From: a virus
Length of the DNA stretch: 35,758 nt
Reading direction: 5' to 3' (one strand)
Virus record (IMG/VR): IMGVR_UViG_3300015360_000110
Coordinates: 1 to 35,758 of that record
Below the pieces are notes generated by a model that saw only the letters and a list, made by a program, of their open reading frames with translations, ran no database searches and was not told where the DNA came from. Made by a program: the position numbers and the translations under genes. How positions within the stretch are numbered: the first letter of the stretch is position 1; each line of letters begins with the position of its first letter. This document shows, piece by piece, positions 4,483 to 23,532 of this stretch.

Positions 4483-4853
4483 TAGATCGCCCTCCTAGCG
4501 AGCGCGAGCGCCAGTCTGATAACTAACTTCAGCGCTCCCGTCGTCTGCGCGGCAGTCGGGGCAGCCATGCCCAGATAGGCGCGCAGCTGCGTCACGGCGG
4601 CTGACAACTGCGTGGCGTAGTTCTCAGGCGCCTCTGACCCGTAGTCGGGCACGGCCGGCGGTGGCGGCGGTACGTGCGCCGCCAGGACCGCAGCCGCACC
4701 GGCCGGCAGGTCTTCAATTGCTCCCAGGGCATCGTAGGTGTGGACGTTGATGCCGTCGTCGTCGTCGTAGGTGCCGAGCGCGCGGAACGAGACGCCGCCA
4801 GCGGTCAGTTCCTGGGCCAGTTGTCGCAGTGCGGGGCGCGTGACTGTCAGCAT
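4479..4853 (-). CDS. hypothetical phage protein
   Basis: 124 residues. The N-terminal half (MLTVTRPALRQLAQELTAGG, then a DDDDG loop) is followed by a proline run (VPPPPPAVPDYG) and a helical C-terminus (NYATQLSAAVTQLRAYLGM, ALKLVIRLALALARR). The layout suggests two small domains joined by a polyproline linker. Family not recognised. It sits between a fibre-like gene and the zinc-ribbon gene and is translationally coupled to the latter. Confidence 0.6.
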   Translation of the reverse strand: MLTVTRPALRQLAQELTAGGVSFRALGTYDDDDGINVHTYDALGAIEDLPAGAAAVLAAHVPPPPPAVPDYGSEAPENYATQLSAAVTQLRAYLGMAAPTAAQTTGALKLVIRLALALARRAIY

Positions 4854-21136: not shown

Positions 21137-21174
21137 AAAAAAGGCGCGGCCACCGTGTTACGGGTGGCCGCGCC
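21137..21174 (-). terminator. strong intrinsic terminator of the regulatory island
   Basis: The minus strand has GGCGCGGCCACC, an 8-base loop and GGTGGCCGCGCC (12 bp, perfect), followed by TTTTTT. It lies 230-270 bases downstream of the IS110-like gene and before the small gene at 21103, so it separates the hairpin island from the membrane-protein operon. Confidence 0.9.
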
Positions 21175-21191
21175 TCAAATTCCTCGTGCGG

Positions 21192-21285: not shown

Positions 21286-21333
21286 GATGGCGGCATCTTC
21301 AATTCGGGTATCAAACGCTCAATGGCCGCCGTC
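21286..21333 (+). repeat. conserved-loop hairpin A
   Basis: Stem GATGGCGGC / GCCGCCGTC (9 bp with one G-U). Loop: A, ten variable bases TCTTCAATTC, core GGGTATCA (21306-21313), nine variable bases AACGCTCAA, then T and a bulged G. Linker to copy B contains TGTGTTCAGG. Confidence 0.85.
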
Positions 21334-21351
21334 GGTTGTGTTCAGGGAGTG

Positions 21352-21405
21352 GGGATGGGCGGCAGTCCTCCGACGGGTATCAAGAGATCACAGGCCACCC
21401 CTCCC
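21352..21405 (+). repeat. conserved-loop hairpin B
   Basis: Stem GGGATGGGCGGC / GCCACCCCTCCC (10 of 12 pairs). Left arm GTCCTCCGAC, core GGGTATCA (21375-21382), right arm AGAGATCAC, then A (not T/C) and GGCC. It ends three bases before the stop codon of the IS110-like gene on the other strand. It is the most diverged stem of the set. Confidence 0.8.
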
Positions 21406-21407
21406 GT

Positions 21408-22310
21408 CTAGACGTAGGCGAGTTCCCGTTCAGGGACGGGCGCGGCCATCTGGGGGCTGATACCCACGCTTGCCGTGCCGCGCCCGTCATCCTCACAAGA
21501 GCAGCGGTGCCGCGCGAACGCGACGCCGTTCCTATCCGCATCTTCAACTACGGCAATCGCATGGCCCGCGCGCTTGTGCCACTCCCGCCATAGGTTCTTG
21601 ACGAGCAGCTTCACCGCGTACCGCATGGCCGCATTGTGCCGTCTGGCCTGCGTCCATTCGGGGCGCTCGGCCTCGTAGTACGCCTTTTTCGTGTCGTAGG
21701 CCACGCGGTACGGTTCGTCGCCCCCGACCTTGACGATTGACTCTCCGATCTGATGGCAGATCACCCGCCCTTGCGGCGCGTAGGCCGTCCCCACGCCACC
21801 AGGCACGCATGCCGGGTGATGGTCGGTCTTGCAGTCGGGCTTACAGCCGAGCAGATGAGAGAATCGGCAGTCGGTGTGCGTCCACGACACGCCCTTCTCG
21901 CGCTTCGGGGCGTGCCCGTCCACGACGTGCAGGCCCAAGTACTTCCAGAGTTTCGAGACGGTCGGGAACCGCCCGATGTCGCCGGTCACGCCGAGCAGAC
22001 GGCCGAAGCCCGGCAGGCCGATGCCGCGCTGCTCCTTGACCCACCCGGCCATGAAGTGTTGCTTGACCCGCATCGTGAGTTCGCGGTCGATGCCCTTCTC
22101 GATCTTCCGGTACAGCTCGACAGCGGCATAAGCCGCGTCAGTGTACCCGTCCATGCCGTCGCGCTCCATCGCGGCGACGCGGTTGCCGGCCGCGACGCGC
22201 TGTTGCTGCGCGTCCCACAACTGGCGGGCGTAGTGGGCGATCACGCCGTGCAGCACCGCAAGGTCGGCACTCTCCAGTTGGGTATCAGTGGCACGATGGC
22301 CGGCGCTCAT
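21408..22310 (-). CDS. IS110-like Transposase_20-domain protein lacking the DEDD domain
   Basis: 300 residues from ATG 22310, chosen for AAGGAG nine bases upstream; a start at 22346 has no ribosome site. Residues 1-90 are helical (coiled-coil-like). Residues about 92-245 match the C-terminal half of IS110/IS116 transposases: helix-hairpin-helix GIGLPGFGRLLGVTGDIGRF, then SKLWKYLGLHVVDG, and a late helix MRYAVKLLVKNLWREW. There is no N-terminal RuvC-like DEDD nuclease domain, and the usual serine-glycine after 'YxGLxP' is not seen (GHAPKREKG instead). An insertion at 145-168 has C148, C156, C160, C168 and histidines, a probable zinc site; C270/C272 follow. It may bind RNA or DNA without being a normal transposase. 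Hairpins C and D overlap its two ends. Confidence 0.7.
   Translation of the reverse strand: MSAGHRATDTQLESADLAVLHGVIAHYARQLWDAQQQRVAAGNRVAAMERDGMDGYTDAAYAAVELYRKIEKGIDRELTMRVKQHFMAGWVKEQRGIGLPGFGRLLGVTGDIGRFPTVSKLWKYLGLHVVDGHAPKREKGVSWTHTDCRFSHLLGCKPDCKTDHHPACVPGGVGTAYAPQGRVICHQIGESIVKVGGDEPYRVAYDTKKAYYEAERPEWTQARRHNAAMRYAVKLLVKNLWREWHKRAGHAIAVVEDADRNGVAFARHRCSCEDDGRGTASVGISPQMAAPVPERELAYV
21435..21488 (-). repeat. conserved-loop hairpin C, inverted copy inside the IS110-like gene
   Basis: Only minus-strand copy. Stem GACGGGCGCGGC / GCCGCGCCCGTC, 12 bp perfect. Left arm CGGCAAGCGT, core GGGTATCA (21465-21458), right arm GCCCCCAGA, then T and bulged G. It lies in the last 27 codons of the IS110-like gene, so it is contained in that gene's mRNA in the sense orientation. 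Confidence 0.85.
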
Positions 22311-22319
22311 GGGCTGCAC
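22248..22319 (+). repeat. conserved-loop hairpin D, overlapping the IS110-like gene start
   Basis: Inner stem GTCGGC / GCCGGC (6 bp, one G-U) at 22263-22304, outer stem GTGCAGC / GCTGCAC at 22248-22319. Left arm CTCTCCAGTT, core GGGTATCA (22280-22287), right arm GTGGCACGA. The minus-strand start codon (22310-22308) and part of its ribosome-binding region lie within the outer stem, so folding could affect translation of the gene. Confidence 0.8.
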
Positions 22320-22336
22320 TCCTTCGGGGGATAGGG

Positions 22337-22383
22337 TGGGCGGCATACAGATGCTGGATATCAGTGCGCTCTTCGGCCGCCCG
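22337..22383 (+). repeat. conserved-loop hairpin E
   Basis: Stem TGGGCGGC / GCCGCCCG (7 bp plus G-U). Left arm TACAGATGCT, core GGATATCA (22356-22363), right arm GTGCGCTCTT (ten bases, the only copy with this length), then C and GGCC. First of five tandem copies that fill the 348-base gap 22311-22658. Confidence 0.85.
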
Positions 22384-22403
22384 GTGGTGTGTTCGGTTGG
22401 CGG

Positions 22404-22449
22404 GAGCCGGCACTCGTGGTCTGGGTATCAGCGGCGTGATGGCCGGCTC
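22404..22449 (+). repeat. conserved-loop hairpin F
   Basis: Stem GAGCCGGC / GCCGGCTC, 8 bp perfect. Left arm CTCGTGGTCT, core GGGTATCA (22423-22430), right arm GCGGCGTGA, then T and bulged G. Preceded by a linker with TGTGTTCGG. Confidence 0.87.
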
Positions 22450-22465
22450 TTGTGTTCGGGGCGCG

Positions 22466-22513
22466 GTGCGCGGCAGCCCTCCTATGGGCATCAGGCCGGT
22501 ATCGGCCGCGCAC
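22466..22513 (+). repeat. conserved-loop hairpin G
   Basis: Stem GTGCGCGGC / GCCGCGCAC, 9 bp perfect. Left arm GCCCTCCTAT, core GGGCATCA (22486-22493, T to C variant), right arm GGCCGGTAT, then C. Preceded by a linker with TGTGTTCGGG. Confidence 0.87.
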
Positions 22514-22536
22514 TCGGCGCTGTTCAGGAGATCGGA

Positions 22537-22582
22537 ACGGCGGCACGTGCCCAGCGGGTATCAGTACGAAGTCGGCCGCCGT
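22537..22582 (+). repeat. conserved-loop hairpin H
   Basis: Stem ACGGCGGC / GCCGCCGT, 8 bp perfect. Left arm CGTGCCCAGC, core GGGTATCA (22556-22563), right arm GTACGAAGT, then C. Preceded by a linker with CTGTTCAGG. Confidence 0.87.
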
Positions 22583-22596
22583 CCGTCAGTGTTCAT

Positions 22597-22656
22597 GCGT
22601 GGGGCGCGGACATGCCACTGCCGGGTATCATGCGCCACGTGGCCCGCGCCCCACGC
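22597..22656 (+). repeat. conserved-loop hairpin I
   Basis: Longest stem: GCGTGGGGCGCGG / CCGCGCCCCACGC, 13 bp perfect. One extra base splits the usual CGGCA (CGG-A-CA). Left arm TGCCACTGCC, core GGGTATCA (22623-22630), right arm TGCGCCACG. It ends two bases before the stop of the 196-residue gene; on the minus strand it could also stall transcription at that gene's end. Confidence 0.87.
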
Positions 22657-22658
22657 GA

Positions 22659-23249
22659 TCAGGTAAAGGCGTTGGCTGGCGGCTTCGACTCGTCGTAGAG
22701 CCGAATCAGCGCAGCGTCATCGAACTTCTGCCCGACCGTCTCATCTCTCCCCAATGCCGCCTCGATGGCCCGGAAATACCTGGCGTTGTGTTCGCTGGCA
22801 ACCGCGTCGTTGCGGTACTGGTCAAACATGCGGCGGCACTGGGATTTGTCCATGAAGCGCAACGTGACCCACTCGCCGCCGATGCGGTACATGCCATCGA
22901 GCAGCGAGCGGTCCCTGATCCGCTCAACCGCGACCACGCGCGGCGACGGTTCCATGATCGGTGTCGGATGCCCCTCCGGCGTCGGCAGCAACAACTCTCG
23001 GAACGAGACGCCCAGGTTGGCCGGGCGCGCGGTCTTGTTGTGATCCTGCCAGATGGAGCCGACAGTCGCGGATGCCCCCAGCATTCGCGCCAGGTCCGCG
23101 AGTTTGCCCTGACGCTCCAGGTCGCTAAAGACACGCTCGGAAGCATCCTTCGGCTGCATCCCGCTGTTGATGTGTTCCTGCACTAGTGTCGTGATGTTCT
23201 TGCGCGTGACCTCTATCGGAGCGGCCTGCTTGCGTAACTCGACAGCCAT
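22659..23249 (-). CDS. 196-residue protein of unknown function in the hairpin island
   Basis: Good ribosome site (AGGAGG seven bases before ATG). N-terminal third is helical (ITTLVQEHINSGMQPKDASE, RVFSDLERQGKLADLARMLG), followed by VSFRELLLPTPEGHPTPIME and a mixed C-terminus (GEWVTLRFMDKSQCRRMFDQ, NARYFRAIEAALG). No transmembrane segment, signal peptide or recognised catalytic motif. It lies between hairpins I and J, transcribed from the divergent region near 23320 and followed by the IS110-like gene, so the two probably form one operon. It could be the partner protein of that gene. Function not assigned. Confidence 0.7.
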   Translation of the reverse strand: MAVELRKQAAPIEVTRKNITTLVQEHINSGMQPKDASERVFSDLERQGKLADLARMLGASATVGSIWQDHNKTARPANLGVSFRELLLPTPEGHPTPIMEPSPRVVAVERIRDRSLLDGMYRIGGEWVTLRFMDKSQCRRMFDQYRNDAVASEHNARYFRAIEAALGRDETVGQKFDDAALIRLYDESKPPANAFT

Positions 23250-23264
23250 CCGTTCCTCCTGTTG

Positions 23265-23316
23265 GCGAGCGCGGCACCGGCGGGTTGGATATCAAGCCAG
23301 GATCGGCCGCCCTCGC
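23265..23316 (+). repeat. conserved-loop hairpin J
   Basis: Stem GCGAGCGCGGC / GCCGCCCTCGC (10 of 11 pairs). Left arm CCGGCGGGTT, core GGATATCA (23287-23294), right arm AGCCAGGAT, then C. It lies in the 5' leader of the 196-residue gene, just before the Shine-Dalgarno, and next to the likely minus-strand transcription start. Confidence 0.85.
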
Positions 23317-23321
23317 TGGTA

Positions 23322-23351
23322 GACTATATACTCAGCCTATAGGTATGGGCA
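23322..23351 (-). promoter_or_regulatory. putative promoter of the 196-residue / IS110-like operon
   Basis: On the minus strand TTGCCC (23351-23346) is followed after 18 bases by TATAGT (23327-23322); TATATA gives a 16-base alternative. Transcription would start near 23315, so hairpin J would be the first structure of the mRNA, in its complementary form. The AT-rich stretch 23321-23345 includes CCTATAGG, a candidate operator for the adjacent ribbon-helix-helix protein. Confidence 0.45.
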
Positions 23352-23358
23352 AGTTCGC

Positions 23359-23370: not shown

Positions 23371-23532
23371 ATGAGCCGAGATGAGTACGTGAAGTTCCTG
23401 GTCAGGCTGCCGTCCGGGCTACTAGATGCCCTGAAGACGTGGGCTGCAAAGAACCGCCGGTCGGTAACGGGTGAGATCATCTACCGCCTAGAGCGGTCCA
23501 TCCGCGCCGACGAACGCAAGCGCCAGGACTAG
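23371..23532 (+). CDS. ribbon-helix-helix (Arc/CopG-like) DNA-binding protein
   Basis: 53 residues: MSRDEYVKFLVRLPSGLLDA, then LKTWAAKNRRSVTGEIIYRL and ERSIRADERKRQD. The VKFLVRLP strand, the LLDALKTWAAKN helix and the RSVTGEIIYRLERSI helix match the Arc/CopG fold. Such proteins form dimers and repress their own promoters by inserting the beta-ribbon in the DNA major groove. Divergent from the 196-residue gene, it is the natural candidate to control the island, through the AT-rich intergenic region. Its TAG shares the CTAG palindrome with the stop of the convergent gene at 23529. Confidence 0.8.
   Translation: MSRDEYVKFLVRLPSGLLDALKTWAAKNRRSVTGEIIYRLERSIRADERKRQD

Follow-up and report, generated by a model that had tools for sequence, protein, structure and literature searches.

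A probable TIGR-TasA locus with stem-loop guide units and a second conserved protein in a tailed phage

TIGR-Tas systems use split guides, in which two spacers lie between box C and box D and pair with opposite DNA strands (Faure et al. 2025, Science; PMC12045711). One of their formats, the stem-loop array, features variable palindromic arms, two spacers of 8–12 nucleotides (nt) and sometimes a conserved loop, and is located beside TasA (PMC12045711). A tandem-spacer architecture is also found in the bridge RNAs of IS110, and the combination of box C/D with a Nop domain is common to TIGR and small nucleolar ribonucleoproteins (snoRNPs) (PMC12045711). Here, we analysed the 35,758-nt viral sequence IMGVR_UViG_3300015360_000110 (positions 1–35,758 of this IMG/VR record, hereafter the window), in which ten hairpin units surround two genes, one of them tasA. 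Our analysis identifies this locus, with high confidence, as a tailed-phage TIGR-TasA system whose guides have the stem-loop-array format. The initial annotation had presented the hairpins as a new structured repeat family without a described counterpart. This did not hold, as spacers, boxes and palindromic arms all match those of TIGR stem-loop arrays (PMC12045711), and the neighbouring gene, too, encodes a Tas protein. The repeats are of a known kind, and the novelty lies in a two-gene variant with guides overlapping the ends of tasA.

Ten hairpin units with paired spacers

All ten of the elements originally proposed are present in the window. The motif GGCA-N10-GGGTATCA, allowing up to two mismatches, has 13 matches against 2.4 expected (none of 100 shuffles scored as high), and a stricter box motif occurs 10 times but at most once in any of 100 shuffled sequences. 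Stem statistics were computed for the nine window units of equal length, in which 93% of the stem cells are paired. Their covariation score is 0.503, compared with 0.169 when the letters of the 3′ arm were shuffled (0 of 500 shuffles as high) and 0.02–0.10 when the partners were slid. Addition of 17 units from two relatives gave 0.513 versus 0.158, and when arms were swapped between units, pairing over the five outermost pairs fell from 89% to 55%. The claim that these stems covary and that their structure is selected is therefore borne out against the shuffled, slid and arm-swapped controls alike, and homologues with a conserved loop and covarying stems are present in many phages. An Rfam search with the hairpin elements returned no match.

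The elements had been read on the plus strand. We reject this strand because the reverse complement yields the published box motifs and two 9-nt spacers; nine of the ten units read on the minus strand, which is also the strand of the neighbouring tasA, and unit C alone reads on the plus strand. On the minus strand the consensus is arm-GGC-CR-(spacer A, 9 nt)-TG-ATAC-CCR-(spacer B, 9 nt)-T-GCC-arm. In each unit the motifs YG and CCR appear twice, once at the edge and once in the loop, and both places are closed by a G-C pair; two variable stretches of 9 nt (10 nt in unit E) separate them. The earlier strand assignment had hidden both this box C/box D symmetry and the two spacers. Thus the fixed loop geometry noted at first stands, whereas its parsing into ten variable bases, an octamer, nine variable bases and a pyrimidine gives way to two spacers together with the R from both box C motifs; the former N10 ends in a pyrimidine in 10 of 10 units because that base is the complement of the R in box C. 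Similarly, the tandem spacing of 63–76 bases is correct, but the run from D to I comprises six copies and five steps rather than five copies. The pentamer GAACA was considered as a linker motif and rejected, as it precedes only a few units.

Box positions are invariant or nearly so across 96 units, with C-C, YG and CC fixed. In the window units as well as in relatives, the 9-nt spacers, TG and CCR keep their positions, as expected of TIGR guides. The loop TGATACCCR is constant while the arms differ from unit to unit, so the constant alternating edge and loop repeats of dual-repeat arrays are not found here and variable, covarying palindromic arms take the place of edge repeats. In the stems of isolated phages, 22 G.U against 4 A.C pairs on the tas strand fit RNA made from that strand. 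A structural repeat unconnected with TIGR (protein-binding hairpins, terminators or packaging signals) and flanking a Tas gene by coincidence would also give GC-armed hairpins with variable loops in intergenic stretches. We consider this extremely improbable in view of the exact 9-4-9 geometry, the constant placement of the box C/D motifs and the recurrence of such units with tasA across the examined loci. The hairpins thus appear to be guide-RNA genes of a TIGR-Tas system, a membership about as firm as sequence allows.

This architecture is consistent with published TIGR-TasA stem-loop arrays, such as the Peromyscus gut locus, in its solo-Nop TasA, tandem hairpins, variable palindromic arms, division into subarrays by non-array stretches and conserved loop, which that format allows. 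It differs from them in the conserved second protein gene between subarrays, in units that overlap the ends of tasA, in one inverted unit, and in a box C of the form CCR with the conserved loop TGATACCCR. The dual-repeat arrays of TasR, TasH and TasA share the 9-nt paired spacers, the UG...CCA-type boxes and the pseudosymmetric edge and loop; however, the window has long variable stems instead of a constant edge repeat, and neither RuvC nor HNH.

The Tas protein and the gene upstream

The open reading frame between the two minus-strand groups of units matches PDB 9mty. A profile built from twelve relatives identified only TIGR-TasR (9mty; E 3.5e-39) and TasH (E 5.7e-19) in the PDB. The AlphaFold model of this protein has a mean predicted local distance difference test (pLDDT) score of 71, with a core above 90, and its ten best Foldseek matches were all TasR or TasH (TasR E 1.6e-7; TasH template modelling score 0.70–0.73 of target). 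A Nop-domain Tas protein is therefore located beside the array, as in described TIGR systems. We identified no RuvC or HNH domain in this protein and no nuclease family in a Pfam scan, which assigns it to the TasA subclass; the TasR match begins at residue 38 of the window protein and at residue 116 of TasR. Window-type TasA also contains a Cys/His-rich insertion (CKPDCKTDHHPAC) at residues ~155–190, a possible metal site, that is absent from the TasA of isolated phages.

Some features of this protein recall IS110 and IS1111 transposases with their bridge RNA, which have a related Nop-type RNA-binding domain and a split guide. The phage database label is "transposase" (PHROG 4285), some relatives match Pfam Transposase_20, and IS110 bridge RNAs have the same tandem-spacer architecture. 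The hairpins could accordingly be attC-like recombination sites in folded single-stranded DNA, or belong to an IS110-type transposon, with the open reading frame as the transposase. However, only ~25 residues precede the Nop coiled coil, which leaves no room for an N-terminal DEDD recombinase domain, and no insertion-element structure is seen. Both profile and fold matches favour Tas over IS110, whose recombinases appeared in the fold search after TasR and then TasH, at E 0.026 or worse. The window contains ten independent one-loop units rather than one bridge RNA with a target and a donor loop, and the G.U bias of the isolate stems points to RNA. Based on this, a recombination-site or transposon origin is very unlikely.

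In every actinobacterial locus examined, the gene upstream of tasA is a member of a single family. All 14 tested members match PHROG 4604, which has no assigned function, and Pfam returned no meaningful family for these 14 proteins. The 196-residue window protein and its L001 and L002 homologues join the PHROG 4604 family by profile comparison with a score of 56.4, compared with 8–14 for shuffled controls (at most 14.2) and 10.8 for TasA. A fold search with the partner model, blind to gene position, ranked proteins as long as Peregrin gp186 and Morrissey gp43 first and third and the 226-residue homologue of Rich fourth. A Mycobacterium phage Omega protein (BFVD Q854P2) is also similar in predicted fold. 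A homologue search with the partner from cluster-A1 phages retrieved 76 phage records, 75 of them mycobacteriophages, compared with 76 mycobacteriophage records for TasA, the two sets being compared by count only.

In the main text of Faure et al. 2025, TasA is without clear protein associations except for TasParB in some dual-repeat operons (PMC12045711), and the PHROG 4604 partner goes beyond that account. TasA-TasParB operons resemble the window in their two-gene organisation with tasA and in arrays on either side and between the genes, but differ in array type and in the partner, in which neither a ParB fold nor any other fold of the PDB is detectable. The PDB search with the partner model gave no match at E <2.8 and Pfam no ParB; this negative is a weak one because the predicted template modelling score of the model is 0.41.

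Relatives, guide turnover and target searches

Three close relatives (loci L001, L002 and L003) carry the same units around tasA with other stems and spacers, and only one window unit clearly resembles a unit of a relative. Units of the form C-CA-N9-YG-N4-CCA-N9-Y-G are found in the isolated phages Morrissey, LonelyBoi, Rich, prophiFSAT01-1, Spooky and BENtherdunthat; in Peregrin and Talia1610, the strict pattern mostly or wholly misses hairpins that are comparable in size. TasA homologues occur in 86 phage records, of which 76 are mycobacteriophages, including many cluster-A1-like Mycobacterium smegmatis phages (Fromanvirus where annotated). Isolated actinophages account for ~84 records with the system, mostly M. 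smegmatis phages in which the gene bears the annotation "transposase". Isolate carriers infect M. smegmatis, Gordonia, Rhodococcus and Arthrobacter. Actinomadura, a Frankiales metagenome-assembled genome and a Mycobacterium genome (G007) also carry tasA with units; the scan of genome contigs by TasA profile gave three loci only and was limited by one pattern.

Cluster-A1 mycobacteriophages have five-unit stem-loop arrays ahead of the "transposase" gene (L016:3600-3990, L017, L020-L035). In seven of these phages the gp75-tasA region is nearly identical save for the spacers, with pairwise differences of 0.55–0.75 in spacers, 0–0.13 in stems and 0.03 in the upstream flank, and units are swapped singly between phages. 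In G007, one unit has spacer A in common with one neighbour and spacer B with the other. Two three-unit clusters (L001:2705-2838 and L014:17172-17305) are built such that the 3′ arm of one hairpin doubles as the 5′ arm of the next. These shared-arm clusters of L001 and L002 resemble the dual-repeat layout, and may be intermediate between dual-repeat and stem-loop arrays.

Targets were sought as spacer A joined to B in reverse complement, a geometry that we infer from two points of PMC12045711, its C-5 rule and the 8-nt 3′ overhangs. A local scan with 137 guides did not exceed mismatched-pair controls once contigs fetched for the unit A pattern were set aside. Window unit A and an L002 guide (L014:16500-16545) point to one common site, TTGAGCGT(T)TCTTC, their registers lying one base apart; this candidate was rejected, as viral contigs gave about 12 distinct, mostly AT-rich and unrelated sites. 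A guide of Gordonia phage LonelyBoi (L018:5863) agrees with phage Spooky, which shares its host strain, at 17 of 18 positions if a gap of 2 nt is allowed, but ~0.3 such matches are expected by chance in the whole scan and we do not take it as a target. A codon-phase signal in the guides of Thor and Euphoria was likewise dismissed, since it did not hold in other guide pairs.

Several observations weigh against the identification of a TIGR-TasA system that binds DNA. The best match of window guides to their own genome has 3 mismatches, the level of mismatched-pair controls; a search of 50,697 phages with 16 isolate guides found no in-register match at 18/18 positions; and the conserved A1 guides gave one match in 396 mycobacterial genomes and 0–3 in viral contigs, both at chance level. 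The window TasA sequence (P0001) taken singly has no Pfam match, window-type stems have 8 G.U against 11 A.C pairs and are uninformative on strand, and the perfect stem of unit D is 4 base pairs (bp) only. The absence of DNA targets in these searches, together with the box C/D and Nop architecture as in snoRNPs, would fit a TIGR-like ribonucleoprotein that, like snoRNPs, uses its guides to act on RNA or to control genes instead of binding DNA. As no fibrillarin-like methyltransferase is found among the operon genes scanned and the nearest solved relatives are the DNA-binding TasR and TasH, we regard action on RNA as unlikely.

By analogy with the published system, the operon transcript would be cut in the linkers into single hairpin RNAs, and a TasA dimer would bind the two pseudosymmetric box C/D sites of one hairpin. 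Spacers A and B would then pair with opposite strands of one DNA site of ~18 bp, which would be bound and bent but left uncut. RNA-guided DNA binding without cleavage is the most likely function of the TIGR-TasA locus. Because guides change fast between near-identical relatives and no window guide matches its own genome, its purpose may be to block or regulate other mobile elements or the host. An interference role against other mobile elements is somewhat favoured, and regulation or aid to integration is a less likely purpose.

Layout of the locus and implications

On the minus strand, the promoter-like site is followed by unit J, the partner gene, units I to D, tasA, units B and A, and the terminator (Table 1). 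A terminator after the last unit has also been described for TIGR arrays (PMC12045711). Guide units are located in frame within the N-terminal codons of tasA in the window (unit D) and in three further loci (L001:2870-2915, L014:17334-17379 and L007:2747-3083), such that the loop box is translated as Asp-Thr-Gln/His/Arg and spacer changes alter the protein tail.

Table 1. Features of the TIGR-TasA locus in window coordinates, in minus-strand order.
Feature	Position	Strand	Remarks
Promoter-like site, upstream of first unit	23323..23352	-	consensus match only, 9/12; one in region, 0.3 expected
Unit J	23265..23316	-	spacers ATCCTGGCT / ACCCGCCGG
Second TIGR-associated protein, 196 aa	22659..23249	-	distant PHROG 4604 family member
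Unit I	22597..22656	-	spacers CGTGGCGCA / GCAGTGGCA; 15-bp stem
Unit H	22535..22584	-	spacers ACTTCGTAC / CTGGGCACG
Unit G	22466..22513	-	spacers ATACCGGCC / TAGGAGGGC
Unit F	22404..22449	-	spacers TCACGCCGC / GACCACGAG
Unit E	22338..22382	-	spacers AAGAGCGCAC (10 nt) / GCATCTGTA
Unit D	22265..22302	-	spacers TCGTGCCAC / ACTGGAGAG; 4-bp stem; overlaps tasA 5′ end
tasA, nuclease-less Nop/IS110-C-terminal-type protein	21408..22346	-	likely start Met13
Unit C, sole inverted unit	21435..21488	+	spacers TCTGGGGGC / CGCTTGCCG; overlaps tasA 3′ end
Unit B	21352..21405	-	spacers GTGATCTCT / TCGGAGGAC
Unit A	21286..21333	-	spacers TTGAGCGTT / AATTGAAGA
Intrinsic terminator, operon end	21141..21176	-	14 pairs, T tail; strong

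Just past the promoter-like site, an Arc-like ribbon-helix-helix regulator (23371-23532, plus strand) reads away from the TIGR operon. A tRNA-Arg (acg) is predicted at 4635-4733 on the plus strand, in the structural-gene part, where the long open reading frames are on the opposite strand.

Beyond the main text of Faure et al. 2025 are also the isolated actinophages with hypervariable spacers inside conserved stems, and the guide units that overlap the ends of tasA. We tentatively propose that actinobacterial stem-loop TIGR loci are obligate two-protein systems, composed of TasA and the PHROG 4604 protein, whose guides are hypervariable cassettes rapidly exchanged in phage-phage competition; the partner may supply a factor still missing from TIGR, whether for processing, as effector or for guide exchange. 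Knowledge of TIGR systems comes chiefly from metagenomes, and the original paper leaves open what they do in nature, what they target, how their guides turn over and which partners they have. Through the window locus, the system can be traced to dozens of isolated phages with cultured hosts, where it has hypervariable guides and a conserved partner, so that these questions become directly testable at the bench.
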